Assembly (NCBI RefSeq): GCF_023498005.1
Contig: NZ_CP097289.1
Span: 9,548,001-9,612,000, forward strand
Origin: Streptomyces durmitorensis
GTDB lineage: Bacteria > Actinomycetota > Actinomycetes > Streptomycetales > Streptomycetaceae
Direction: 5' to 3'
Length of the DNA stretch: 64,000 nucleotides
The notes below the pieces were generated by a model, which was given only the letters and a program-made list of their open reading frames with translations, did not search any database and was not told the origin of the DNA. Within the stretch, counting starts at the first letter, position 1. Each line of letters begins with the position of its first letter. Below, in pieces: positions 261-61,507 of the stretch. Made by a program: the position numbers and the translations under genes.

Positions 261-334
261 ACCGGTCTCTGCAACCGGTTTCATAGACCGGTTGCAGAGA
301 CCGTGCCAAGTTGCAGAGACCGTGCCAAACCGGT
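261..334. promoter_or_regulatory. Operator array with four ACCGGT boxes
   Basis: ACCGGT occurs at 261-266, 274-279, 287-292 and 329-334; the first three are spaced exactly 13 bp. The box contexts (GCAACCGGTTTCA, CCAAACCGGTTCC) resemble LacI-family operators in actinomycetes. A perfect inverted repeat with 17-bp arms (263-279 and 287-303) and a 7-nt centre spans two boxes. The array sits between the divergent LacI-type gene and the permease, so it is probably where that regulator acts. Confidence 0.7.
291..328. repeat. 19-bp perfect tandem repeat
   Basis: GTTGCAGAGACCGTGCCAA occurs twice head to tail (291-309 and 310-328). The first copy forms part of the right arm of the operator inverted repeat, so the duplication may have changed the number or spacing of regulatory elements in front of the permease. 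Confidence 0.9.
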
Positions 335-402
335 TCCCCGCGCGCCCGCACTCTGACACGCCGACAACCGCGTGCCCGCCCTTCACCCCGCCCGAGGTCC
401 CC

Positions 403-1767
403 ATGCCCACCACCGCTCCGCCGCCCGGCGAGCAGACCGACGCCGCCACCCCGCCGCCCGCCTCGCCCGTCGAGCGGCTCTTCGGCGTCCGTGACCGCGG
501 CAGCAGCCACCGCACGGAACTCGTGGCGGGCGCCTCGATGTTCATGGCCGCCGCCTACGCCGTCGTCGTGGTGCCCGGCCAGCTGGCCTCCGCCGGTGTG
601 CCGCACGGCGCCGCGACGACCGCCGTCATCATCGCCATCGCCCTCGCGACGCTGGCCATGGGCCTGATCGCCAACCTGCCGTTCGTCGTCGCCCCGGGCC
701 TCGGCGGCGTGGCCCTGATCGCGTTCACCATCGTCGGACAGGACCATGTCCCCTGGGACACGGCACTCGGCATGGTCTTCTGGTCCGGCGTCGCCTTCCT
801 GCTCCTCACCCTCTTCGGCATCCGCGACCTCGTCACGCGGCTCATGCCGATGAACCTCAAGTACGCCATCAGCGGCGGCCTTGGCCTCTACATCGCCCTC
901 ATCGGATTCCGCGACGCCGACCTCGTCGTCGGCAACGCCGACAAGGCGGCCCTCGCGGTCGGCGACCTGTCCGAGCCCACCGCGCTCCTCGCCCTGGCCG
1001 GCCTGCTGCTGCTCACAGCCCTCGCCGCACGCAAAGTACCGGGCGCCTTCCTCATCACCATCGCAGCCGTCACGGTCGTCGGCGTGCCGCTGGGCGTGAC
1101 CGATGTCCCCGACAGCCTCCTCTCGGCCCCCGACTCACCCGGCCCCCTCCTCTTCAACATCGACATCCTCGGCGCACTCAAGCCCGAATACTTCCCCTAC
1201 ATCTTCGCGTTCTTCGTGTCCGAGTTCTTCTCCATGACCGGCACCCTCCTTGCCGTCTCCGGACGCGCCGGTCTCCTCGACAAGGACGGCAACATCCCCG
1301 GCTCCCGCCGCCCCTTCCTTGTCGACTCGGTCTCCGTGATGGGTGGTTCAGCCGTGGGCGCGCCCTCGATGACCGCCTACCTGGAGTCGTCGGCCGCCGC
1401 CGACGCCGGCGGCAAGACCGGCCTGGCATCGGTATGGGCCGCGTGTGGCTTCGCACTGCTGCTGCTCGTCACGCCGTTCGCCACCCTGATCCCCTCCGCG
1501 GCCACCGCATCCGCGCTGATGTTCATCGGTCTGAACATGCTCGGCGCGCTCAAGAACGTCGACTTCAAGGACCCCACGAACGCCATCCCGGCCGCCCTGA
1601 CCGTCGCCACCACGCTGTTCTTCGGCAACTTCGGCACCGGCATCGCGACCGGCCTCGCTGCCCACGTCCTGGTGAAGACCGTCAGCGGCCGGATCCGCGA
1701 GGTGCCCTGGCCGCTGTGGATCGTCATGATCCCGCTGGGCTACTACTTCTACACACTCGTCCCCTGA
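403..1767 (+). CDS. NCS2-family purine permease (AzgA/adenine-guanine-hypoxanthine type)
   Basis: This is a 454-residue polytopic membrane protein with about 12-14 hydrophobic segments. It matches the AzgA branch of the nucleobase:cation symporters: an early VERLFGVRDRGSSHRTELVAG segment, a GLGGVALIAFTIVGQ region, NLKYAISGGLGLYIALIGFR, FVSEFFSMTGTLLAVSGRAG, and SAVGAPSMTAYLESSAA near residue 315. AzgA proteins import hypoxanthine, adenine or guanine with protons. The ATG at 403 was chosen over an upstream in-frame start because GAGG sits five bases before it and the family consensus starts there. It is followed by adenine deaminase, which fits uptake and use of adenine. The LacI operator array lies just upstream. 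Confidence 0.9.
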   Translation: MPTTAPPPGEQTDAATPPPASPVERLFGVRDRGSSHRTELVAGASMFMAAAYAVVVVPGQLASAGVPHGAATTAVIIAIALATLAMGLIANLPFVVAPGLGGVALIAFTIVGQDHVPWDTALGMVFWSGVAFLLLTLFGIRDLVTRLMPMNLKYAISGGLGLYIALIGFRDADLVVGNADKAALAVGDLSEPTALLALAGLLLLTALAARKVPGAFLITIAAVTVVGVPLGVTDVPDSLLSAPDSPGPLLFNIDILGALKPEYFPYIFAFFVSEFFSMTGTLLAVSGRAGLLDKDGNIPGSRRPFLVDSVSVMGGSAVGAPSMTAYLESSAAADAGGKTGLASVWAACGFALLLLVTPFATLIPSAATASALMFIGLNMLGALKNVDFKDPTNAIPAALTVATTLFFGNFGTGIATGLAAHVLVKTVSGRIREVPWPLWIVMIPLGYYFYTLVP

Positions 1768-1857
1768 CCGCCCCGTCAGCCCGAGCCGACAACCCTTCTC
1801 CAGGGCGGGCCGCGCCCGCCCACGCGTGACGACACCCTTCGCAAGGAGCACGACCAC

Positions 1858-3576
1858 ATGAGTGAGCAGCACGACCTCCGGATCAGCGGCGGGCGCGTGA
1901 TGTCCACCTTCACCGGTGAGGAGTTCGCCGCGGACATACTGGTACGGGGCGACCGCATCACCGCGGTGCTCCCGCCCGGCACCCCGGCCACGGCAGGGGA
2001 GGAGGTCGACGCGACCGGCATGCTGATCGTCCCCGGCTTCGTGGACGCCCACATGCACATCGAGAGCGCGTTCCTGACGCCTCAGGAGTTCGCCGCCGTG
2101 ACGCTGGCCCGCGGCACGACGACGGTCCTCGCCGACCCGCACGAGATCGTCAACGTCGCCGGCCGGGACGCCATGCGCTGGATGATCGACGCGGGCCGCG
2201 AGACCGCCCAGACCCAGCTGTGGGGCGTTCCCTCGTGCGTGCCCGCCCTTGAGGGCCTGGAGCACGCCGGAGCGGCCCTCTCCGCCGACGACATCGCGGA
2301 CATGCTGGGGTGGCCGGGTGTCGTCGCGCTCGGCGAGGTCATGGACTACCGCGCAGTCGTCGCCGGTGACCGCCGCATGCACGAGATCACCGCGGTGGCC
2401 CGCGCGCACGACGCGATCCTCGACGGCCACTGCCCGAACCTGACCGGCGCGGAACTGAGCGCGTACCTGGCCACCGGCGTGGACTCCGACCACACCAAGA
2501 ACCGCACCGAGGTGGTCCTGGAGAAGGCACGCCTGGGCATGACGATGATGCTCCAGGAGAAGTGCCTCACCGCGGACGTGGCGACAGCCTTGCTGTCCTT
2601 GCCCCAACTCCCGCCGCTGTGCCTGGTCACGGACGACCTCGCGGCCGACCACATCGTCGAGCGAGGCCACCTGGACCACATCGCGCGGGTCGCCGTGGCC
2701 GCCGGGTTCCCGCCCCACGCCGTCCTCAAGGCCCTGACCTGGACGCCGGCCCAGCGCCTGCGGCTCCACGACCGAGGCGTGGTCTCCCCGGGCAAGCGCG
2801 CCGACCTGGTCCTGCTGCGGGGCGAACTCGCCGCGTTCGAGCCCGCGTTGGTGCTGGCGGGTGGCCGCATCGTGGGCCGCGACGGCGTGCCCGAACAGGC
2901 GGCACCCGCCTCGGAGACCCTTGCCGTGCCACCCCTGGACAGCCGCGTGGACGTAGAAGCCCAGGAGGAGGACGGATACCGCTGGCGCGTGGACCTGCCG
3001 GACGGCACGCACCGCTTCCGGGCGATGAGCGTCAACCCGCGCGACACCTACACTGAAGCGACCGAGGTCGAACTCCCGGTCTCCGGCGGCGAGGTGCACT
3101 GGGAGGGCCGGACCACACTGGTCCGCGTACGCAACCGCTACGGACGCCCCGGCATGGTCTTCGCCCCGCTGGTGGGCCGGGATCTGGGTGCGGGCGCCGT
3201 GGCGTCGACGTACGCCCACGACAGCCACAACCTCCTGACGATCGGTACCTCACGCGCGGCGATGGCCGCAGCCGCCGCGACAGTCGTCGCCGACGGGGGA
3301 GGGGTGGCCGTCGTCAGGGGTGCCGCGGGCGAGACCGTGGCGGCGCGCATGCCGCTGCCCGTGGGCGGCGTCCTTTCCGCCCGCCCGGCCCACGACGTCG
3401 CCGCCCAGGCGGCCGCGGTGCGAACGGCTCTGGAGACCTGGGGCTGGAACCACCTCAACCCGTTCATGAGCGTGTCGACCCTGACGCTCGCCGTCTCACC
3501 CGCCCTCAAAATCACCGACCGCTCGCTGGTGGACGTGGCACGCCGCGAACCGGTGGCGGCGACGGTGGGGGACTGA
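1858..3576 (+). CDS. ade: Adenine deaminase
   Basis: This 572-residue protein matches bacterial adenine deaminase, which hydrolyses adenine to hypoxanthine and ammonia in the cytoplasm. Visible family features are the metal-binding GFVDAHMHIES near residues 62-72, the GTTTVLADPHEI segment near 86-97, DGHCPNL near 188, GVDSDHTKN near 206 and CLVTDDLAADHI near 255. The C-terminal half carries the usual adenine deaminase domain ending with NPFMSVSTLTLAVSPALKIT. Length is normal for the family. The start has AAGGAG nine bases upstream. It lies 90 bp after the purine permease on the same strand, so the two probably form a salvage operon. Confidence 0.93.
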   Translation: MSEQHDLRISGGRVMSTFTGEEFAADILVRGDRITAVLPPGTPATAGEEVDATGMLIVPGFVDAHMHIESAFLTPQEFAAVTLARGTTTVLADPHEIVNVAGRDAMRWMIDAGRETAQTQLWGVPSCVPALEGLEHAGAALSADDIADMLGWPGVVALGEVMDYRAVVAGDRRMHEITAVARAHDAILDGHCPNLTGAELSAYLATGVDSDHTKNRTEVVLEKARLGMTMMLQEKCLTADVATALLSLPQLPPLCLVTDDLAADHIVERGHLDHIARVAVAAGFPPHAVLKALTWTPAQRLRLHDRGVVSPGKRADLVLLRGELAAFEPALVLAGGRIVGRDGVPEQAAPASETLAVPPLDSRVDVEAQEEDGYRWRVDLPDGTHRFRAMSVNPRDTYTEATEVELPVSGGEVHWEGRTTLVRVRNRYGRPGMVFAPLVGRDLGAGAVASTYAHDSHNLLTIGTSRAAMAAAAATVVADGGGVAVVRGAAGETVAARMPLPVGGVLSARPAHDVAAQAAAVRTALETWGWNHLNPFMSVSTLTLAVSPALKITDRSLVDVARREPVAATVGD

Positions 3577-50148: not shown

Positions 50149-50389
50149 CCCACCTCCCCAGCCCGGCCCTATGGACACCGACAGCCTCTGCCCGGGGGCG
50201 CAGGCAGCAGCCCCGTGCTCCCGGCAGAGCCCGCCCAGCTGCTCCCTACTTGGGCGCATCGACGAGTCGGCCTGGTGCGTGCAGCCGGGCCGAACCCGTG
50301 ATCGCCCCTGCCCTCCTAGCGCCTTGACCGAGTCCCCTCGTACCTCGGACACCGCATCCCGCAGGCGCGCCAAGCCGAGGTCGCGCACG

Positions 50390-50996
50390 GACGGCGACCT
50401 GCCCATCGGCATGGGGATGGCCACCGCCAGCTACCACAACAACCGACGCGACTCCAGCGCACGGGCCCGGATCCGCGCCGACGGCACCGCCGAAGTCTTC
50501 GCGGCCACCGCGGACATGGGCCCCGGCACCACCACCTCGGTTATGCAGGTCGCCGCGGACGCCCTGGGGCTGCCGGCCTCGGCGGTCACCTTCAGGCCGG
50601 GCGACTCCAGCTACCCCGCCGCGCCCCTGCACGCGGCGGCCTGCACCATGGCGAGCGTGGGCTCGGCCGCGCACACGCCGCGTCGGTCTGCCCGGCCTCG
50701 AAACCACCGGCAACTGGGGTCCGGGCGAAGCCGATTCAGAGATCTCCACCTACGGCTACGGAGCCGTCTTCGCCGAAGTTTCCGTCGACCCCCTCCTGGG
50801 CCTTGTCCGCGTACGGCGGAGCTTCGCGGCGTACGACGTGGGGAGGGCGATCAGCCCCAAACTCGCCCACAGCCAGGCCATCGGCCGCATCGTCAACGCG
50901 AGCCTCGCCGTCTCTCTTGTGCCGGTGAACGCGGATGTCCCCGACCTCGACGCCGCGTTCATCAACACCGAGGACCCGAAGGCCGATCCGTCCTGA
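50390..50996 (+). pseudogene. Xanthine/aldehyde oxidoreductase molybdenum-subunit relic
   Basis: Frame one reads LPIGMGMATASYHNNRRDSS, FAATADMGPGTTTSVMQVAA and ALGLPASAVTFRPGDSSYPA, then loses the family at about 50680. Another frame continues NWGPGEADSEISTYGYGAVF, SVDPLLGLVRVRRSFAAYDV, GRAISPKLAHSQAIGRIVNA and LVPVNADVPDLDAAFINTED, ending at TGA 50994-50996. Between QAIG and GRIVN about 20-30 residues are missing, and the first two thirds of the protein are absent. It is the remaining part of a molybdopterin-binding subunit. Confidence 0.75.
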
Positions 50997-52090: not shown

Positions 52091-52534
52091 ATGTCCTCTC
52101 CCGCATGGGCGAGTTCGCCTTCGGGACGTTGGTCCCTTTCGTGTGCCCAGGCGTTGTGGAAGCGCCGACTCGTATGGACCGCGGTGGCCGTTCTCCTGCT
52201 CACGCTGGTGCAGTGCGGCGCCCAGACCGCGCACGCCGGTGAGCAGTCGATGGCCCGCGTCAGTGCCGTGTCGCGAACACTGCCCCCGCCCGAGGGAGGG
52301 CCCACGACGGAGGTGCTCGACGGACCTGAGTCACCATCAGGCTGTTCCGTCTCCGATCCCGGCTCCGTCGGAACCGCTCCTGCGTCCGTACGCGGCCTGC
52401 CGTACGCGAGTGCGCTCGCGAACCCGACGGCCCCTGTCACACCGCTCATCGCTGAGCACCTCCGAGCTGTGCCCAGCCGGATACCAGGTGGCAGCCATGC
52501 CACACCGGCTGTCCTGTGCAGGTGGCTGATCTAG
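52091..52534 (+). CDS. Putative secreted or membrane-anchored protein
   Basis: A plus frame with strongly gene-like third positions. It has a signal-type segment [20 protein letters not shown] followed by [10 protein letters not shown], where cleavage could occur after AHA. The mature part is proline/serine-rich with no recognised fold. Start is uncertain: ATG 52091 gives 147 residues, while an earlier ATG at 51953 is possible and a start just before the helix cannot be excluded. It lies about 100 bp before the cysteine-synthase-like gene and may be co-transcribed. Confidence 0.5.
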
Positions 52535-52629
52535 GAGCCGCCTTCGCGGTCGGCCGCGGTCGACCGCCGCGCTGCTCGCCTGACGGGCGTGCCGTGCGAG
52601 ACGAGCACCCGCGCAGCTTCTACAGCGAA

Positions 52630-53754
52630 ATGAGAGCGAATCAGATGCACTCTCTGACCACGAGTGACTTCACTCCTGCCGGCTCAAGCCTGCCAGGGCT
52701 GGTCGGCAATACACCTGTCCTTCGGGTGGCCCAGCCGTTCACCCCCTCCGACCGTGGCTTCTGGGCCAAGTTGGAGGGCTTCAACCCGGGTGGCATCAAG
52801 GACCGCCCGGCACTGCACATGGTCGAACGGGCGCGTGCCCGCGGCGAATTGCTGCCGGGCTGCCCGATCGTCGAGTCGACCAGTGGCACCTTGGGGCTCG
52901 GCCTTGCCCTCGCCGGAATGGTCTACGGGCATCCCGTCACCCTTGTCACCGACCCGGGTCTGGAACCGTCCATGGCCCGTCTCCTTGCTGTGTACGGTGC
53001 CAGGGTCGACACGGTGACCGAAGCGCACCCCTCCGGAGGCTGGCAGCAGGCCCGCCGGGACCGGGTCGTCGAACTGCTTGCGCGGGAGCCCGGAGCTTGG
53101 TGCCCCGATCAATACGGCAATCCCGACAACGTCTCCGCCTACACTCCGCTGGGCCTCGAACTCGCCTCCCAGATCGGCCACATCGACGTACTCGTATGCA
53201 GTGTCGGTACCGGGGGCCACTCCGCGGGCATCTCAAGGGCGCTTCGCCAGCTCTACCCGGACATGCGCCTGGTGGGGGTGGACACCGTCGGCTCGACCAT
53301 CTTCGGGCAGCCCGCCCGGCCCAGGCTCATGCGCGGGCTCGGATCCAGCATCTACCCGCGCAACGTCGCGTACAAGAACATCAGCGAGGTGCACTGGGTG
53401 GCACCAGCCGAATCCGTCTGGTCCTGCAGGCAGTTGGCGACCTCGCACTACGCCACGGGTGGCTGGAGCGTCGGCGCGGTCGCGCTCGTGGCCGGGTGGC
53501 TGGCGCGTACGCAGCCTCGGGACACGCGCATCGTCGCGATCTTCCCCGACGGGCCTCAGCGTTATCTGGAAACCGTCTACGACGACGAGTACTGCGCCGC
53601 GAAGGGGCTGTTGGGAGTGGTCCCGGCCCCCGAACCGGATGTGGTGGGCCGCTCCGACGAGAAGGAAGTGACCCGCTGGACCCGCTGCACCGAGGTCGCA
53701 GATCCGCTCTCCCAGCCGACCGAGTCCGGCGTGCTCGAAGGAGGGGGCCGGTGA
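52630..53754 (+). CDS. PLP-dependent cysteine-synthase-like enzyme
   Basis: A 374-residue fold-type II PLP protein. It opens [10 protein letters not shown], has the Schiff-base lysine in [14 protein letters not shown] (canonical members read P-x-x-S-x-K-D), then [20 protein letters not shown] and [17 protein letters not shown] for phosphate binding. Relatives make cysteine, O-phosphoserine- or diaminopropionate-type amino acids. The serine before the lysine is replaced by isoleucine, so its natural substrate may differ from O-acetylserine. Start is uncertain between ATG 52630, ATG 52645 and one further upstream. Its stop overlaps the MFS start by four bases. Confidence 0.83.
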
Positions 53755-55049
53755 AGGCCACGATCGCGCAGGTTCGCTCCTATGACCGGAGCGTGCAGCT
53801 CCTGTTCGCCAATCAGTTCACCATCAATCTCGGCTTCTACATGCTGATGCCTTACCTGGCACAGCATCTGTCGGGATCGCTCGGGCTCGCGGGGTGGCTG
53901 GTCGGTCTCGTGCTGGGGGTGCGGAACTTCAGCCAGCAGGGCATGTTCCTCATCGGCGGCACCCTCGCCGACCGGTTCGGCTACAAGCCGCTGATCGTCG
54001 CCGGATGTGTTCTGCGCACAGCCGGTTTCGCGACGCTCGGTCTGGTCGACTCGGTCGTGGCGTTGATCGCGGCCTCGGCGGCCACCGGCTTCGCGGGCGC
54101 TCTGTTCAACCCCGCCGTGCGGGCCTACCTCGCGGCGGACGCGGGGGAGCGCAGGGTCGAGGCATTCGCCCTGTTCAACGTCTTCTACCAGGCGGGCATC
54201 CTGCTCGGCCCGCTCGTCGGGATGCTGCTCACAGGAGTCGACTTCCGTATCACCTGCCTGGTTTCTGCAGCGATTTTCGCTCTGTTGAGCGTGGTGCAGA
54301 TCCGCGCGCTGCCTGCCCGCAGGGGCGACGATCGCGCAAGCGGCGGCACCGGTGAGCGGGAGAGTGTGCTGGCGCAGTGGCGCGGCGTGATCGCCAACCG
54401 GGCGTTCCTGCTCTTTTCAACCGCGATGATCGGCTCGTACGTCCTGTCCTTCCAGGTCTATCTCGCGCTGCCGCTCGAAGTGCGGCGCCTGGGTGGCGAC
54501 GGCGAGTTCGGAACCGTTGCCGTGGCACTGCTGTTCGCCGCCTCCGGCCTGACCACGATTCTCTGCCAGACCCGGGTGACTGCTTGGTGCAAGGAGCACT
54601 TGGAACCCGGCCGCGCCCTGGCCTGGGGCCTGCTGATCATGGGAGCCGCATTCATACCGCTCCTGGCCGCGACCGCCGTCCCGGTGCCGGACACCGGCAT
54701 CGGACTGTGGCTGCTCGCCTCCGTACCGCCTACGCTGGCCGCACTCATGCTGGCGCTGGGCACGATGATCGCGTACCCCTTCGAGATGGACACCATTGTC
54801 CGGCTCGCGGGCAACCGCCTCGTCGCCACCCACTACGGCCTCTACAACACCATCTGCGGAATCGGCATCACGCTCGGCAACCTGCTCACCGGCGCAGCCC
54901 TCGACGCTGCCCGGGCCGCCGGAATGTCCGCGCTGCCCTGGCTCGCGTTGCTCGGGCTCGGTCTGGCCTGCTCGGCGTCCCTCTACGGCCTGCACCGGAC
55001 CGGACGCCTGACACGCCCCACGCCCGAACCGCAGCCCGCGACGGCCTGA
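53751..55049 (+). CDS. MFS transporter coupled to the PLP enzyme
   Basis: A 432-residue major facilitator with 12 helices and the loop 2-3 motif [29 protein letters not shown] and [19 protein letters not shown] are typical of drug/metabolite exporters of the MdtH/YdeE branch. It begins with the GTG in GTGA that overlaps the stop of the PLP gene, with GGAGGG before it, so translation is coupled. The likely job is export of, or resistance to, the amino-acid-like product of the partner enzyme. A strong bidirectional terminator follows. Confidence 0.87.
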
Positions 55050-55066
55050 CCGACCCCGCACTCAAC

Positions 55067-55106
55067 CGGTGGGGACGGGCGGTTACCAACCCGCCCGTCC
55101 CCACCG
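55067..55106. terminator. Bidirectional hairpin terminator
   Basis: CGGTGGGGACGGGCGG (55067-55082) pairs perfectly with CCGCCCGTCCCCACCG (55091-55106) around TTACCAAC. It lies between convergent MFS and NCS2 genes and can serve both. Confidence 0.87.
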
Positions 55107-55280
55107 CAGCGGCGCGTCGGCGAGTTCGCCGGTCGTGGTCAGGCTGACGCGCTTGGGCTGGCGGGCGGTTGAGGGCTCGCCGCTCCGGTGTTGGCAACCG
55201 CGGTGGGAAGGACCGGGACGAGCCGGGCTTCGGGCAAGGTCACCGACTTGACGGCTCTCAACGGCCCTTTCGGAACCTCC

Positions 55281-56600
55281 CTAGGCTGGTACGTCGACTG
55301 GTTCCGCGCCTCGAACGAGCTTGGGTCCCCTTCCGTTGAACGCCAGATTCAACCCGAAGGCCACCAACGTCGCACTCGTGACCGGAGATCCCAGCACGAT
55401 CCCCACCCCCTCCGGGAGCTTGCTGTACAGGTCGGGGGCCACCTCCGGGGCCATACCGGCGCCGATCGCCACGGCCACGATCAGCAGGTTGTGCGTGCCG
55501 TCGAAGTCCACGGTGCGCAGCGTGCCGATGCCGACGGCAGCGACCGTCGCGAACATCACCAGGCCTGCCGCACCGACCACGGGCTGTGGCAATCCGGCGA
55601 CCAGCGCGCCCAGTTTGGGGACCAGGCCGAGTACCAGGAGCATGCAGCCCGCGACGGTCGCGACATGCCGGCTGCGGACCTTCGTCATGGTCACCAGGCC
55701 GACGTTCTGCGCGAACACGGTGTCCAGGAAGGCGTTCATGACGCCGCCGAGGACACCCGAGAGGCCGTCCGCCGCCAGGCCACGTGCCATGTCCGCGGTC
55801 GTCAGCTTCCTTCCGGTGAGTTCCGCGACCGCGAGGAGGTCCGCCGTCGACTCGGCGAACAGCACCAGCATCACCACGCACATCGAAAGCACCGCGACCG
55901 CGGGGAACTGCGGTGCCCCGAAGTGGAAGGGAGCGCTGACCCCGACCCAGTCCGCCGCCCGCGCGGTCGATACGTCGACCAGACCGAACGGCACCGCGAC
56001 CGCCGTGCCCGCCAACACGCCCAGAAGGACGCCGGTTTGGGCGAGGAAGCCACGGCCGAAGCGGGCGACGAGGAGGATCACGATCACCACGAAGGCGGCG
56101 AGGGCGAGCCGTGAGGGCGCGGCATGGTCGGGGGCCTTCGGGTCGCTGCCGACGACCAGGTTCACCCCGACCCCGATCAGCGCGAGCCCCACCACCGTGA
56201 TCACCACACCGCTCACCAGCGGCGGGAAGAAGCGCACCGCTTTCGCGAACGGGTAAGCCACCAGCAGGCCGAAGACGCCTGCGGCCAGCATCGACCCGTA
56301 CACCGCCTGCAGGCCGTACTCTCCGGCGATCAGGATCATGGGCGTCACCGCGGTGAACGCCGCCCCCGCCATCACCGGCATCCGCACACCCAGGATCCGG
56401 CCGACCCCGGCCCCCTGGATGATCGTGACGATGCCCGCCACGAGCAGATCGGCGTTGATGAGCACGGCGACCGTCGCGGCGTCGAGGCCGGCCGCCGCAC
56501 CGAACACCAGCGGTACCGTCACACACCCGGTGTACATCACGATCACGTGTTGCAGACCGAGCACCGCGAGCCGCCCGAAACCGGCGCTCCTCATGGGCAT
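55281..56600 (-). CDS. NCS2-family nucleobase:cation symporter (uracil/xanthine type)
   Basis: The 439-residue membrane protein shows the NCS2/NAT pattern: LAVLGLQHVIVMYTGCVTVP, INADLLVAGIVTIIQGAGVG, VMLVLFAESTADLLAVAELT, and NAFLDTVFAQNVGLVTMTKV with RSRHV, the NAT signature region. It has about 14 helices including short half-helices. Members import uracil, xanthine or uric acid. The ATG at 56600 has AGGAGG seven bases before it; GTG at 56606 is possible. The dioxygenase gene lies 18 bp upstream on the same strand, so they form one unit. Confidence 0.9.
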   Translation of the reverse strand: MPMRSAGFGRLAVLGLQHVIVMYTGCVTVPLVFGAAAGLDAATVAVLINADLLVAGIVTIIQGAGVGRILGVRMPVMAGAAFTAVTPMILIAGEYGLQAVYGSMLAAGVFGLLVAYPFAKAVRFFPPLVSGVVITVVGLALIGVGVNLVVGSDPKAPDHAAPSRLALAAFVVIVILLVARFGRGFLAQTGVLLGVLAGTAVAVPFGLVDVSTARAADWVGVSAPFHFGAPQFPAVAVLSMCVVMLVLFAESTADLLAVAELTGRKLTTADMARGLAADGLSGVLGGVMNAFLDTVFAQNVGLVTMTKVRSRHVATVAGCMLLVLGLVPKLGALVAGLPQPVVGAAGLVMFATVAAVGIGTLRTVDFDGTHNLLIVAVAIGAGMAPEVAPDLYSKLPEGVGIVLGSPVTSATLVAFGLNLAFNGRGPKLVRGAEPVDVPA

Positions 56601-56618
56601 CGTCACGTCACTCCTCCT

Positions 56619-57605
56619 CTAGCGTGCGAAGTTGGCGGCGATGCGCTGCTGGATGTAGTCCGCGGCCGTGATCGGCGGATAACGGCCCGCCGGCCCCTCG
56701 ATCACCACGTCACGGTCGGCCTGCGCGAAGAATGCGATGCTGTGGCGGGCCGACCGGTCGTCACCGGGGCCCGGTGACTTGACCCGGTGGAAGTTCGACG
56801 GCAGCCGGTCGTCGCTCCAGCGCATCAGCATGTCCCCGATGTTGCAGGTGATCACGTTGTCGGCCGGCTCGACCGGTGTCCACTCCTGCGCCTCGGCCTC
56901 CTTGCCCGGGCACACCTGGAGCCCGCCCTGTCCGTCGCGCTGGAACAGCAGCGTCAGACAGTCGAAGTCCGTGTGCGCGCCCGCCCGCCAGACGTCGGTC
57001 GGGATCTCGACGTCCTCGGGTACCGCGAAGTAGTGCAGCATCCTCAGTGTCGACTGGTACTGCTCACTGGCCGGGTCGTGGGCGCGCGCGAAGAACCCGT
57101 CGGGCAGACCCAGCTTGTCGGCGAAGCAGGACAGCACACGCATGGCCAGCTCCCGGCAGCGTGCCTCGAACGCGAGCGTGCGCACTTGGAATCCGGGCAG
57201 TGCGTCGTCCGGCCACAGCCCGTCCATGTGCGGCCGGGTCAGCTGGTACGACTCCTTCTGGTCGGGCGTCCCGATCGACGGACGGACCTGGGTCATGGAC
57301 TCCCAGCCCGAGTTGAGTCCCTTCTTCAGGGCGTGCCGCGCTTTGGTCTCCTGCGGCAGGGCGAAGAACCGCTCGGCGTCGGCGAACGCCGTGTCCACGG
57401 CGTCCTGGTCGATGCCGTGGTGCACGAGCTGGAAGAAGCCGATGTCGGTGGCGGCGGCCCACAGCTCCTCGGTGATCTCGGCCTTGCGGGCGTCGAAGTC
57501 GCTGAGGTCGATCCGGCGGATCTCCCGGGCGGAGGTCTCCGTGCCGGTCCCGCCCATGCGCGTCTCCTTGGCCAACTCGGCCAGGCTGTACGTCGTTTCA
57601 GTCAT
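56619..57605 (-). CDS. Isopenicillin-N-synthase-like 2-oxoglutarate/Fe(II) dioxygenase
   Basis: The 328-residue protein has the DIOX_N region (IDLSDFDARKAEITEELWAA, GFFQLVHHGIDQDAVDTAFA) and the jelly-roll core with the Fe(II) triad: HTDFD (His-x-Asp) near residue 213 and HRVKSPGPG near residue 272, followed by an arginine (RHSIAFFA) that would bind 2-oxoglutarate. Products of the family range from penicillins to hydroxylated or demethylated small molecules. Its place between an NCS2 permease and an amidohydrolase/permease pair suggests a nucleobase or similar heterocycle as substrate. Start ATG 57605. Confidence 0.87.
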   Translation of the reverse strand: MTETTYSLAELAKETRMGGTGTETSAREIRRIDLSDFDARKAEITEELWAAATDIGFFQLVHHGIDQDAVDTAFADAERFFALPQETKARHALKKGLNSGWESMTQVRPSIGTPDQKESYQLTRPHMDGLWPDDALPGFQVRTLAFEARCRELAMRVLSCFADKLGLPDGFFARAHDPASEQYQSTLRMLHYFAVPEDVEIPTDVWRAGAHTDFDCLTLLFQRDGQGGLQVCPGKEAEAQEWTPVEPADNVITCNIGDMLMRWSDDRLPSNFHRVKSPGPGDDRSARHSIAFFAQADRDVVIEGPAGRYPPITAADYIQQRIAANFAR

Positions 57606-57819
57606 CGCGGCTGTCGCTCCTCGAAGCGATGGTGGCTTCTCGGGATGCAGTCACCGCCCCTGCGCTCCCCACCGCGGACACTCAGAGGCCCGCGGGCACG
57701 GTCGTGGCGGACCCCTTCGTGGGTCCGGCGCCGTGAGCTGGCGCGGGGCCCGGTGACCCAGGCCCCGCACGCGATGCGTTCAGCCTGCCCGGCGTGTGTT
57801 TCCACCGGCGATCATGGTG

Positions 57820-59145
57820 TTACGCGGCAGTAAATCCGAGCCCGGCCGCCAACTCCGCGGAGGGGAGACGGACATGTTCTCCATCGCGCATCAGGACCTC
57901 GCCGCCGACCATGACCACGGCTACGGTCCGGTTGCTCGCACATGTCAGGAGCGTGGCCCCTGGATCGCGTACGGGAAGGCAGGCGTAGTCCTTCTCGAAG
58001 CGGTGCAGGACCAGGTCTGCCTGCATGCCGACCTGTATGCCGTCCGGGCGTTCCTCCAGGCCGAGAACCTGGTTCGCGCCGTTCGTGGCGAGCTCGAACA
58101 TCTCGGGGAATCCGAGCAGATCGGCCTTGCGGTGCGCGGCCCGCTGCAGGTACGCGCCGATGCGCAGCGCCTCCAGCATGTCCTGGGTGTCGTTGCTGGC
58201 CGCGCCGTCGACGCCGAGCCCGACCCGCAGCCCGGCGGCCAGCATGTCCGGCACGGGAGCGATTCCGCTGCCCAGGCGCATGTTGCTGAGCGGGTTGTAC
58301 GAGATGCCGACCCCGGTCCGGGCGAGCGTCGCGCGGCCCGCGGCGTCGAGCTCCACGCAGTGCACGGCGAGCAGCCGCTCCCACAGGAACCCCGCTCGCT
58401 CCAGATAGTCCACGGCGCCGACTCCCGCGTGTGCGCGGCACATTGCGTCGTCCGTTGTCGTCTCCAGGAGATGCAGCGAGACGGACAGCCCGCGCTCGTC
58501 TGCGTAGTCGCGCACAGTGGCCATCCCCTCCGGGGTCAGACACCGCGGATTGGGCACGGCGACCCCGATTCCGACCCTGCTGCCGCGCGCCGCTGCGATC
58601 AGCTCGTCGGTGTGCGCGAGCGCCTCCTTCAGGGGCTGCATCAGACGCGGGTCGAAGCCCCACTTGCGGCCACGGTCCGCACGGTCGGCCACGCCCCGGC
58701 ACAGCAACGCCCGCACTCCACTGTCGCGCAGCGCCCGCAGCACCGCGTCATGCACCTCGGAGGACGGGTGCGGCCACATGTGCTCGACGAGTGTGGTGGT
58801 GCCGCTGCGCAGCGCCTCGGCTGCGGCTGCGGCCGCGGTCGCGTAGGCCCGCTCGGGGGTGAGCAGCGCGGCTTCCTCGCCGACGGCACTGAGCCACGCG
58901 AGCAGCGGCAGGCCCTCGCCGATGCCTCGCAGGCCCGCCTGGAAGAGGTGCGTGTGCGTGTTCACCAAGCCGGGGGTGAGATGGCCGCCGGGACCCTCCA
59001 GAACCCGCGGCCCATGGGGGAGTTGACCGGCTGGTACGACAGCGCTGATCCGCCCGTCGGACAGGTGGACGTCCATCCCGGCGTGCCAGTTGCCCTCGCT
59101 CAGGACGGTGACGTCGGTGATCGTGTCGATGTCGGGCGTCGTCAT
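57820..59145 (-). CDS. Amidohydrolase (8-oxoguanine/guanine deaminase or TrzN-like)
   Basis: A 441-residue metal hydrolase of the ATZ/TRZ group: LTPGLVNTHTHLFQAGLRGI (metal His-x-His), GTTTLVEHMWPH, SLHLLETTTD, AVHCVELDAAG and GLGVDGAASNDTQDMLEAL with the catalytic aspartate. Near relatives deaminate guanine, 8-oxoguanine, cytosine or triazines. The ATG at 59145 overlaps the stop of the NCS2 gene by four bases (ATGA), so these two are translationally coupled: the permease imports and this enzyme hydrolyses. No signal peptide is present. Confidence 0.88.
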   Translation of the reverse strand: MTTPDIDTITDVTVLSEGNWHAGMDVHLSDGRISAVVPAGQLPHGPRVLEGPGGHLTPGLVNTHTHLFQAGLRGIGEGLPLLAWLSAVGEEAALLTPERAYATAAAAAAEALRSGTTTLVEHMWPHPSSEVHDAVLRALRDSGVRALLCRGVADRADRGRKWGFDPRLMQPLKEALAHTDELIAAARGSRVGIGVAVPNPRCLTPEGMATVRDYADERGLSVSLHLLETTTDDAMCRAHAGVGAVDYLERAGFLWERLLAVHCVELDAAGRATLARTGVGISYNPLSNMRLGSGIAPVPDMLAAGLRVGLGVDGAASNDTQDMLEALRIGAYLQRAAHRKADLLGFPEMFELATNGANQVLGLEERPDGIQVGMQADLVLHRFEKDYACLPVRDPGATLLTCASNRTVAVVMVGGEVLMRDGEHVRLPSAELAAGLGFTAA

Positions 59146-60476
59146 CGGGCGTGGTCCTTCCGGAGCCGGGGCGCGTGGTGGAACAGCAGGTTGAGGGCGA
59201 AGGCGATGATGCCGGTGACCGCGATGCCGCTGTCCAGAACCGTGCGTGCGTACGGGGGGAGTGGCGCGTAGAAGTCCGGAGAGCCGACCGGGATCATCCC
59301 GAGACCGAAGGCGAGCGCCGCGGTCAGCAGATTGCGGGAGTCGGTGAGGTCGGCACGGGCCAGGATGCGCAGGCCGACGGCGCCGACCATGCCGAACATG
59401 ACGAGTGAGACTCCGCCGAGGACCGGCCCCGGAACGGCTGCGACGGCCGCCCCGAACACCGGAACGAACGCCAGCACCACCATGAACAGGCCGGACAGCG
59501 CCACGACATGACGACTGCGCACCCGCGTCACGCTGACCAGGCCCACCGACTGCCCGAACGTCACAATGGGGAAGGAGGCGAGAGCTCCCGAAGCCGCGGT
59601 CGCCACGCCGTCCGCGCGCAGCGCCCGCACGACGGTGGGCGCGTCGTCCCCGCGCTCGACGATCTGCCCGACGGCGAGCGTGTCCCCGACGGACTCGACC
59701 ATGTTCACGAGCTGCACGACGAGCATCGCCGCGATCGCCGGGACAACGAACGTGGGTGCTCCGAAGGCGGTCGGGTCCGGCGCCGTCACCGCGTGCGCGT
59801 CCGTCATGCCCGAACCGTCGAACAGGCCGAGCGGCAAGGCGAGCACGGTCCCCGCAGCCATCGCGACGAGCACCGAGAACCGGGCCAGAGAGGGCGGCGC
59901 GAGCCACTCCACCAGCACCACGAGCAACACCGTTACCCCGGCCAGAGCAAGCCCGCGCCCACCGCCGGCACCGTGGCCACCGCTGATGAGCCCGGCCGCC
60001 GACGGCACCAGCGAGAAACCGATCACAGCGATGACGGTCCCGGTCACCAACGGCGGAAACAGATGCAGCCCTCGTCCGAACCACGGTGCGACGGCCACGG
60101 TCACCAGACCTGAGACGATCGTCGCCCCGAACACGGCGGCGAGCCCATGCTCCTTGCCGATCAGCACAGCGGGCGTGATCGCGGTGAACGTCGACCCCAT
60201 CACGATCGGCAACCGGGCCCCGACCTGCTTCACGCCGAGCGACTGCAGCAGTGTGGCGAGCCCGCTCACCAGCAGATTGGCGCTGATGAGCAGCCGTATC
60301 CGGTCCTCGGGCAAGTTCAGCGCGTTGCCCACCAGCAACGGCATCGTCGCCATGCCCGCGTAGGCGACGAGCAGATGCTGCAGGCTCAGAGGCACCAGGC
60401 GGCGCATTGGCGGCCGGACATCAACGGGGTGTGGTCCCGTCTCGGGTGCGACGGCATGCGTGGGTACAGCCATCAT
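59142..60476 (-). CDS. NCS2-family nucleobase:cation symporter (operon head)
   Basis: The 444-residue membrane protein resembles its downstream relative (LVPLSLQHLLVAYAGMATMP, ISANLLVSGLATLLQSLGVK, MVESVGDTLAVGQIVE, FGQSVGLVSVTRVRSRHVV). The NAT-type signature is varied at QSVGL, where the other copy has QNVGL, so its substrate may differ. It heads a leftward unit with the amidohydrolase, overlapping by four bases. Start is ATG 60476, near a GAGG-type site (GGGAGGA). Transport by proton symport is the family norm. Confidence 0.88.
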   Translation of the reverse strand: MMAVPTHAVAPETGPHPVDVRPPMRRLVPLSLQHLLVAYAGMATMPLLVGNALNLPEDRIRLLISANLLVSGLATLLQSLGVKQVGARLPIVMGSTFTAITPAVLIGKEHGLAAVFGATIVSGLVTVAVAPWFGRGLHLFPPLVTGTVIAVIGFSLVPSAAGLISGGHGAGGGRGLALAGVTVLLVVLVEWLAPPSLARFSVLVAMAAGTVLALPLGLFDGSGMTDAHAVTAPDPTAFGAPTFVVPAIAAMLVVQLVNMVESVGDTLAVGQIVERGDDAPTVVRALRADGVATAASGALASFPIVTFGQSVGLVSVTRVRSRHVVALSGLFMVVLAFVPVFGAAVAAVPGPVLGGVSLVMFGMVGAVGLRILARADLTDSRNLLTAALAFGLGMIPVGSPDFYAPLPPYARTVLDSGIAVTGIIAFALNLLFHHAPRLRKDHAR

Positions 60477-60539
60477 TCCTCCCTGAAAGCTCGGCGGAAG
60501 ACGGCTGGTTAGCGCCGAGACCGGTGAGCACCTCCGCGC

Positions 60540-60568
60540 ACACCGGCCGTTGCAGCCATGACCGGTGT
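60540..60568. promoter_or_regulatory. Inverted repeat upstream of the NCS2/amidohydrolase unit
   Basis: ACACCGG (60540-60546) and CCGGTGT (60562-60568) are inverted copies 64 bp before the permease start. It could be an operator; no regulator gene is adjacent. Confidence 0.4.
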
Positions 60569-61507
60569 AGAGGAGACCGTAGGGAGGGAGTGTTTCCCAC
60601 AGGTTGCCGTCAGGGATCGGGTGCAGGACTGCGTTCCCTGCTCACCTCCTACGGCACCGAAGTCCTCGGGGTGTCCCGTGGGGCCGCGGGTGGTCTTGTG
60701 CTGCTCGGTGGGTGGAGCCGGTGTTCACCTCCGAACTGGAGATGGCCGAGCTGATCCCGTACGTCTCCTGCTGGCGCCTGGTCCCGTTGGGCGCGCTGTC
60801 GGCTCGCGTCGGCCGGATTTTGGTCCGGCCGCCGTGCGAGAGAGCTTCCCGCGCGGCCCAAGGACGGGGTGACGTCCGCAGGTGCTGGGACAGGACGCTG
60901 CTACTGCGGACACCTGTGGCCGTAGGTCCGGCAAACGCCAACGAGCCGATGTACTGCTGAACAACCGATCTGCCCTCCGCCAGCCCGGTCACCAACGCAC
61001 CATCACGCTCGTCTCATCACCGCCGCCAGGAGACGGGCGGGATGAGCCGTACTCCATCGCCATTAGTCCGTTGCGTTCAACGGGTTTCGTGTCATGGAAG
61101 CGAACGCTTGATCGTTGAGGATGAACAGCGCCTACACAAAGTTGATGACCATCAGGCCCACGTAGCAGACGAGTACCCCGATACCCACGGCATCAAGGTG
61201 GACGGGTCCTCGGCCCCTGCAGTGAAGGGCTCACTGACCACTTCGACATCGAACCGTTGCCCCTGGCCTGACTTGTCGGCGAGCCGAGCAGGAAGGGCCG
61301 CCCTGCGACGACGCCTGCATGACTGGATCCTTCTCGGTGTCTGTCCCCGCGACCGCTCGTGCCCACAGAATGGCCCCCGGAGTGGCGTCGGCGCTGCGAT
61401 GACACGCTGGCTCCAGTCGGCCGGTGCAGGCGGCGCGGCTGGATCTCCTCGCTCTCCCAGTACGGGGTCTGCTCCCTGTGGCCGGTGCTCAGTCCCTCGC
61501 GCCGTCG
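60569..61507. other. About 940 bp without a convincing gene
   Basis: One plus-frame has short protein-like parts near 60640-60720 and, in another frame, at 60720-60850 (FTSELEMAELIPYVS), which could be an interrupted relic. A minus-strand piece near 61130-61200 (VGIGVLVCYVGLMVINF) looks like a membrane-protein end. Neither is enough to name. The rest looks empty. Confidence 0.4.

Follow-up and report, generated by a model that had tools for sequence, protein, structure and literature searches.

The window analysed here is a stretch of 64,000 nucleotides from the genome of Streptomyces durmitorensis (contig NZ_CP097289.1, positions 9,548,001 to 9,612,000). It contains a compact minus-strand cluster of two NCS2-family nucleobase permeases (NCS2a and NCS2b), an amidohydrolase (AHS) and an Fe(II)/2-oxoglutarate (2OG) oxygenase (DIOX), the gene of which is preceded by a candidate structured leader RNA. 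In window coordinates, the features are as follows.

59142..60476, minus strand: NCS2a, first gene, NCS2-family nucleobase permease of 444 amino acids (PF00860, 292.9 bits; TIGR00801, 331.8 bits against a cut-off of 291.8)
57820..59145, minus strand: AHS, amidohydrolase of the guanine-deaminase (GuaD) type, 441 amino acids (PF01979, 174.5 bits)
57638..57735, minus strand: candidate structured leader RNA of 98 nt with three hairpins, 32 nt upstream of the DIOX start codon (alignments, covariation and covariance-model search)
56619..57605, minus strand: DIOX, Fe(II)/2OG oxygenase of the isopenicillin-N-synthase type, 328 amino acids (PF14226, 72.6 bits; PF03171, 68.6 bits)
55281..56606, minus strand: NCS2b, NCS2-family permease of the xanthine-permease (PbuX) subfamily, 441 amino acids with a GTG start, with an ATG two codons later (PF00860, 301 bits)

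The order NCS2a, AHS, DIOX, NCS2b and the 4-bp overlap of the first two genes agree with an earlier, sequence-only reading of this DNA. The 18-bp spacing which that reading gave for DIOX and NCS2b holds for the ATG start and shrinks to 12 bp with the GTG start. AHS and DIOX are separated by 214 bp, a gap that the earlier reading does not mention; its sequence is strongly conserved and contains the RNA structure. DIOX was found in 11 of 150 Streptomyces genomes (E ≤ 1e-40) and AHS in six (E ≤ 1e-60). All six AHS carriers also have DIOX, less than 1 kb away, a linkage that exceeds chance. The whole 9.86-Mb host genome holds nine NCS2 genes, and none lies within 50 kb of its four other PF03171 genes.

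DIOX consists of a DIOX_N (PF14226) and a 2OG-FeII_Oxy (PF03171) domain, the sole matches at E ≤ 0.001. The fungal xanthine dioxygenase XanA is of the TauD type; no TauD-family domain was found in DIOX at this threshold, and membership of the XanA family was rejected for this reason. The Fe ligands H211, D213 and H273 and the 2OG ligand R287 are present in all 98 aligned DIOX rows and the second 2OG ligand, S289, in 96. A check of 25 positions in the active site and motifs showed 21 to be the same in every row and the other four (S289, L190, C216 and N271) to be the same in 92–96 rows. The closest solved relative by sequence is the thymine 7-hydroxylase (T7H) of Neurospora (5c3p, 104.9 bits), followed by 3oox (99.8 bits). 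A Foldseek search with the AlphaFold model of DIOX (pLDDT 86.7) returned T7H at ranks 1–11, and T7H, 3oox and SpoC tied in VIA-align Z (31.0, 30.9 and 30.7). The T7H site comprises R190, Y217 (where F or W is allowed) and F292, with E122 and N294 contacting the base (PMC4787775). The equivalents of the first three are R188, F214 and F293 in all 98 rows. DIOX can thus be classified as an Fe(II)/2OG oxygenase of the isopenicillin-N-synthase type with T7H as its nearest relative. It shares the fold, the Fe and 2OG ligands, the R190 and F292 equivalents and, as predicted, the nucleobase substrate class with T7H (PDB 5c3p–5c3s), but is only ~30% identical to it and has a different conserved loop (N98, W101, E102, R108). 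DIOX as a member of the T7H family was rejected, the E122 and N294 contacts not being kept.

The partner proteins point to purines. NCS2b scores 442.9 bits against the xanthine permease model TIGR03173, above the cut-off of 414.15, and NCS2a falls narrowly below it (406.3 bits). Mapping by alignment to 3hpa gave AHS a catalytic set of Q69, E228, H262 and D313; the metal motif is H64-x-H66. Among 22 AHS rows, Q69, E228 and D313 are invariant and H262 is nearly so. The same Q, E, H and D are the catalytic residues of N2,N2-dimethylguanine hydrolase (PMC13054789, PMC12828455), and by these residues AHS is assigned to the GuaD-type amidohydrolase deaminases; it shares the set with the cluster of 8-oxoguanine deaminase and N2,N2-dimethylguanine hydrolase (AtzB) (PMC13054789). 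Among solved structures, AHS comes closest to 3hpa (an 'amidohydrolase'), 7ww2 (entered as an 8-oxoguanine deaminase) and 4v1x (atrazine chlorohydrolase). Because AHS reaches only 265.2 bits against the NCBIfam 8-oxoguanine deaminase model NF006055 (cut-off 532), we did not file it as a member of that family.

To place the cluster among its relatives, we surveyed 97 DIOX loci (numbered L; genomes are numbered G): the best 80 of 587 confirmed named loci, 10 further Streptomyces loci and seven plasmid loci from 60 plasmid records. Removal of four loci with identical DIOX left 93 unique loci (53 actinobacterial, 40 proteobacterial); one example is the DIOX locus of G123, which matches the Streptomyces longisporoflavus locus exactly (L099 = L015). 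Neighbours were labelled by BLAST assignment to clusters, of which the representatives, rather than every gene, were annotated with Pfam or NCBIfam. The orthologues are 57–94% identical to the DIOX of the window. Within 6.5 kb of DIOX, 45 of the 53 actinobacterial and 35 of the 40 proteobacterial loci have an importer (NCS2, NMT1-like or other substrate-binding ATP-binding cassette (ABC) type) and/or a deaminase; 38 and 30 loci, respectively, have both. The sequence-only reading had named unrelated neighbours in most hosts as evidence against it; the survey found the opposite. The full set of two NCS2 genes, AHS and DIOX, for which that reading proposed a search in other genomes, occurs in eight of the 93 unique loci, the window not counted. 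Where DIOX is at least 79% identical (n = 22), NCS2 is present in 20 loci, AHS in 15 and both in 14.

Importer and deaminase types are interchangeable. NCS2 prevails in most Streptomyces, and ABC importers in Nocardia, many Rhodococcus and Proteobacteria. The deaminases beside DIOX differ in descent, comprising several AHS kinds, a CDA type, which has guanine deaminases among its top solved relatives, and a CodA type.

Two further arrangements were seen in the survey. A number of loci, L035, L041, L049, L054 and L089 among them, have ABC/NMT1 genes and another oxygenase of the DIOX type (~31% identical) beside DIOX; in Proteobacteria this oxygenase is also accompanied by a glyoxalase-like gene and, in several loci (e.g. 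L041, L089), by its own xanthine riboswitch at the NMT1 gene. In L041, L044, L048, L111 and others (Acidovorax, Rahnella), a block of a CodA-like amidohydrolase, RidA, creatininase and an NMT1-like binding protein adjoins DIOX, possibly another heterocycle pathway.

The regulation of the proteobacterial orthologues provides a further indication of the substrate class. The regulons of the xanthine riboswitch (NMT1, RF03054) include 'pcbC' dioxygenases as one of three main gene types; purine substrates were predicted for them, while their precise functions were not established and the substrate was left open in 2020 (Yu and Breaker, 2020; PMC7373994). The riboswitch is an OFF switch triggered by xanthine, and its aptamer binds xanthine and urate but rejects N-methylxanthines and common pyrimidine bases (PMC7373994). 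An Rfam scan placed RF03054 directly upstream of DIOX in six of seven proteobacterial loci (L047 being without it) and in none of seven actinobacterial loci. In a core-motif scan of the 97 loci, the riboswitch preceded DIOX in 32 loci and headed its operon in three others, which amounts to 35 of the 40 unique proteobacterial loci, with no match in shuffled sequence. The motif is absent from five proteobacterial loci (L047, L060, L110, L113, L115), from the actinobacterial loci and from the window, and it is present in four Cupriavidus loci that have no importer or deaminase neighbours (L056, L062, L078, L086). The DIOX of the window is 65–69% identical to 32 proteobacterial genes with the riboswitch directly upstream. 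In a tree, the actinobacterial proteins form one clade (57 rows, support 100/96) among proteobacterial genes; four rows intended as paralogues from the host genome were disregarded because of wrong reading frames (branch length 10). By identity and phylogeny, the window DIOX is assigned as an orthologue of the xanthine-riboswitch 'pcbC' dioxygenases. The OFF logic speaks for DIOX acting before xanthine or urate.

At the position held by the xanthine riboswitch in Proteobacteria, most Streptomycetaceae loci carry a different RNA element. It folds into three hairpins: CACGG/CCGUG closes the first (5') one in the majority of rows, the second has seven pairs, and the third combines a variable stem with the constant loop GGGCGGUGA. 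A 17-base core is identical upstream of DIOX even where the protein is only 68–72% identical (L037, L104, L106); L107 and L108 differ from it by three bases, and one copy with two mismatches occurs in L095. In a MAFFT alignment of 22 sequences, from which the structure itself was derived, 94.2% of the cells of hairpins 2 and 3 can pair, and nine of the 15 pairs show double changes. Covariation was seen in 33 cells, compared with 8.9 in shuffles (0 of 500 shuffles), and slid controls were all far lower; a model-fitted alignment of 25 sequences gave 36 compared with 8.9.

A covariance model built from the 22 sequences detected the leader at E ≤ 2e-5 in 24 of 65 sources (1.33 Mb), every time directly upstream of DIOX. 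The next matches were six weak ones (E 0.11–0.9; L026, L031, L032, L066 and two in L038), which we took as chance. Together with L019, this gives 25 leader loci among 30 unique Streptomycetaceae loci, the window included, of which three (L027, L101, L109) were outside the model-building set; the leader is absent from L020, L023, L031, L033 and L105. It was not found in 240 kb of other NCS2, uricase and molybdenum-hydroxylase regions of the host genome, to which the search there was limited, and among plasmids it matched solely in the known Streptomyces plasmid. No Rfam family matched window positions 54900–61000 at E ≤ 1, nor L014 and L107 at gathering scores.

By analogy with the proteobacterial orthologues, the leader probably sets DIOX expression, and it is a candidate for a second kind of purine sensor in front of this gene. 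Only 11 of the 25 sequences have a local hairpin over the ribosome site, and universal sequestration of that site was rejected on this count. The partial coverage and the five Streptomycetaceae loci that lack the element speak for a rival explanation, in which the leader would not be a riboswitch but a protein-binding site or RNA, or just a strong structure for processing or termination between the two genes. Against this stand the covariation, the conserved asymmetric loop, the placement shared with the xanthine riboswitch, and the occurrence of the element where no AHS precedes DIOX (e.g. L017, L037, L104). We regard such a non-riboswitch role as a serious contender that falls somewhat short of an even chance.

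Urate-degrading genes lie next to DIOX in a few hosts. In Rhodococcus triatomae (L035), a gene for a substrate-binding protein, DIOX and AHS precede genes for a fused OHCU decarboxylase/uricase, HIUase, DUF6986, allantoicase and a member of the polysaccharide-deacetylase family. By similarity (75–93% identity), this gene run recurs in Rhodococcus sp. RD6.2 (L055), where two adjoining open reading frames (ORFs) correspond to the fusion. Among six species examined of the genus of RD6.2, uricase occurs exactly in the two with DIOX. The RD6.2 genome (G151) gave no MoCoBD_2 match at E ≤ 0.001 and no match to two xanthine dehydrogenase (XDH) models, with the proviso that draft genomes may miss genes. 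Should the substrate of the RD6.2 gene run be less oxidised than urate or 8-oxoguanine, either DIOX or an unrecognised enzyme would be expected to oxidise C8. Across the hosts tested, PF01014 uricase is present in 23 of 25 actinobacterial DIOX genomes. The model NF043082 was useless as a presence test for XDH: none of 32 genomes exceeded its cut-off, although 31 matched at E ≤ 1e-30.

Several details of these loci deserve mention. DUF6986, weakly similar to HpcH/HpaI aldolases, lies between HIUase and allantoicase in both Rhodococcus loci (L035, 14253–15503, and L055) and is a candidate for the ureidoglycolate or glyoxylate step. In a Burkholderiales metagenome-assembled genome (L091, 8125–10980), the riboswitch and DIOX come just after HIUase and urate oxidase (PF06181) genes, and the opposite strand carries genes for OHCU decarboxylase and NCS2 permeases. 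Genes that degrade oxidised purines were reportedly not seen with the xanthine riboswitch (PMC7373994); in L091, urate oxidase and HIUase do adjoin the riboswitch-DIOX unit, but the riboswitch sits after them, before DIOX. Of three XDH-like neighbour genes tested, only that of Rhodococcus L038 is XDH-like; the two Streptomyces ones (cluster c11) scored as PaoC-like and CODH-like, far below XDH cut-offs, and were rejected as a link to purines.

Taken together, we propose that the cluster serves to scavenge a purine base, with DIOX catalysing an oxidation between guanine and urate, and we put the probability of this reading at roughly 0.6. The genes, their families and linkage, the conserved active sites, the riboswitches of the orthologues, the covarying leader and the urate genes of Rhodococcus are read from sequence; the substrate of DIOX, the position oxidised, the order of the two steps and the function of the leader are what we infer from them. 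NCS2a and NCS2b would import the base, AHS would put oxygen in place of the 2-amino (or alkylamino) substituent on a guanine-type ring, and DIOX, with Fe(II), O2 and 2OG, would hydroxylate the purine, most likely at C8. In one order, DIOX would convert guanine to 8-oxoguanine and AHS would convert this to urate; in the other, deamination would come first and DIOX would oxidise xanthine to urate. The first order fits both the gene run and the OFF switch, and the second fits the gene run better than the switch. Urate would then enter the uricase pathway of the host, whose uricase gene is located elsewhere in the genome. The net result would be a molybdenum-independent counterpart of XDH, working like XanA but built on the T7H type. 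That the substrate is a purine base is probable from the linkage, the urate genes of some hosts and the riboswitch on the proteobacterial orthologues. C8 is our favoured position, at slightly less than even odds, because among the reactions considered it is the sole one that explains a uricase gene run in a genome without a detected molybdenum hydroxylase. The fuller proposal, that the leader represents an independently evolved class of riboswitches which respond to an oxidised purine (xanthine, urate, guanine or 8-oxoguanine) and that DIOX is a C8 purine hydroxylase making urate from guanine with AHS and without molybdenum, is doubtful as a combination.

A number of observations weigh against this interpretation. 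Eight of 53 actinobacterial loci and one of 40 proteobacterial loci have no importer, deaminase or riboswitch near DIOX (L017, L032, L034, L037, L038, L046, L066, L104 and L060). Farther away, uricase and a distant AHS occur in L038 and L066, and L038 also has the XDH-like gene. Urate genes of the kinds searched occur in just seven of the 97 loci, which span up to ~21 kb each, and one of these is a 48–49% uricase match. PF01014 uricase was found in none of 15 proteobacterial DIOX genomes tested and is missing from two of the 25 actinobacterial ones. R. triatomae (G150) retains an XDH-like gene, which is ~85% identical to genes of uricase-less relatives and 50% to uricase-linked XDH. The genome G195, without DIOX or uricase, also lacks MoCoBD_2. 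XDH (XdhB) exceeds its curated cut-off in all 18 proteobacterial DIOX hosts tested, and the window's own genome has several molybdenum-hydroxylase genes elsewhere; for these reasons, DIOX was rejected as a simple replacement of XDH. In the active site, the T7H base contacts E122 and N294 correspond to Q121 and Q295 in all 98 DIOX rows, and T7H N87 maps to a differing loop. Finally, an OFF switch triggered by xanthine (PMC7373994) speaks against xanthine as the DIOX substrate.

The presence of XDH in the proteobacterial hosts tested, where C8 oxidation is already covered, also lends weight to the main rival. Here, DIOX would be an oxidative N-demethylase of methylated purines, such as N-methylguanines from RNA turnover or methylxanthines; the methyl group would be lost as formaldehyde, AHS would remove the 2-(alkyl)amino group to give xanthine, and XDH would form urate. 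A xanthine OFF switch suits a xanthine-producing enzyme, with an aptamer that rejects N-methylxanthines (PMC7373994), and relatives in the amidohydrolase cluster of AHS hydrolyse N2,N2-dimethylguanine to xanthine (PMC13054789). However, demethylation alone would not give urate, and the RD6.2 run continues to uricase in a genome where no molybdenum hydroxylase was found. In the annotated neighbour clusters we noticed no gene for the handling of formaldehyde, though no search was aimed at such genes. Overall, we consider demethylation unlikely. Oxidation of hypoxanthine at C2 to xanthine, as in the step attributed to Klebsiella HpxDE, would likewise yield the riboswitch ligand (the hpxDE oxidation is recounted in PMC7373994), with AHS handling guanine separately and both branches meeting at xanthine. 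This reading is improbable, as it leaves the uricase run in a genome without a detected molybdenum hydroxylase unexplained and, by score, the neighbouring deaminases tested are of the guanine, 8-oxoguanine or cytosine type.

The cytosine type and the structural rank of T7H could instead argue for a bacterial T7H-like enzyme whose substrate is a pyrimidine (thymine or a 5-substituted uracil) supplied by deaminases from cytosine- or isocytosine-type bases. T7H is the top match by sequence and Foldseek, the Fe, 2OG, R190 and F292 equivalents are kept, and CodA-type deaminases partner DIOX in some loci. But two base contacts differ, 3oox and SpoC equal T7H in structural Z, urate genes lie in some loci, and the regulating aptamer turns away common pyrimidine bases in favour of xanthine and urate (PMC7373994). 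A pyrimidine substrate is thus very improbable, and oxidation of a purine between guanine and urate is the reading that we prefer.

The sequence-only reading had combined uptake, hydrolytic deamination and Fe(II)-dependent oxidation of a purine-like ring into a possible new pathway. The combination is backed by the linkage, the riboswitch on the proteobacterial orthologues and the urate genes of some hosts, but it is not new, because the prediction for orthologous dioxygenases is in print (PMC7373994); what stands of the novelty is the actinobacterial form of the predicted route. The same reading knew of no nucleobase role for the isopenicillin-N-synthase type, which does not hold, since T7H is of that type (PMC4787775) and purine substrates were predicted in 2020 (PMC7373994). 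Like the 'pcbC' regulons, the window has an orthologous DIOX, and those regulons contain similar partners (NMT1-like ABC, PRK12393-type amidohydrolase, deaminases). It differs from them in being actinobacterial, with NCS2 importers, and in carrying another leader RNA in place of RF03054; in addition, DIOX is joined to uricase genes in two Rhodococcus loci. The family and likely substrate class were predicted earlier (PMC7373994); new are the cluster in Actinobacteria, the link with urate genes and a candidate leader RNA without an Rfam match (Rfam 15). The literature searched, consisting of open-licence papers with most subscription papers outside it, contained no enzyme assay of the DIOX family. 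DIOX and XanA, from different Pfam families, would share 2OG-dependent purine oxidation that is independent of molybdenum.

If the proposal is true, one oxygenase family in Actinobacteria and Proteobacteria would give bacteria a molybdenum-free path to urate that starts from guanine or xanthine. The substrate question of 2020 becomes testable with the actinobacterial clusters, especially with the RD6.2 gene run. Orthologous genes with two unrelated leader RNAs would clearly exemplify convergent control by RNA.

The remainder of the window contains three features of related interest. Positions 292–3576 hold a second purine-like module, an NCS2-family permease (PF00860, 114.6 bits) followed by an ORF that, from a reading of its translation alone, we presume to resemble adenine deaminase. 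At 50348–50894, about 4 kb from the cluster, two pieces of the molybdenum-hydroxylase domain MoCoBD_2 lie in different frames and look like a decayed gene. On the strand opposite to the cluster and adjoining it, positions 52516–55049 encode a pyridoxal-phosphate-dependent SbnA/cysteine-synthase-like protein and then a major facilitator superfamily transporter.

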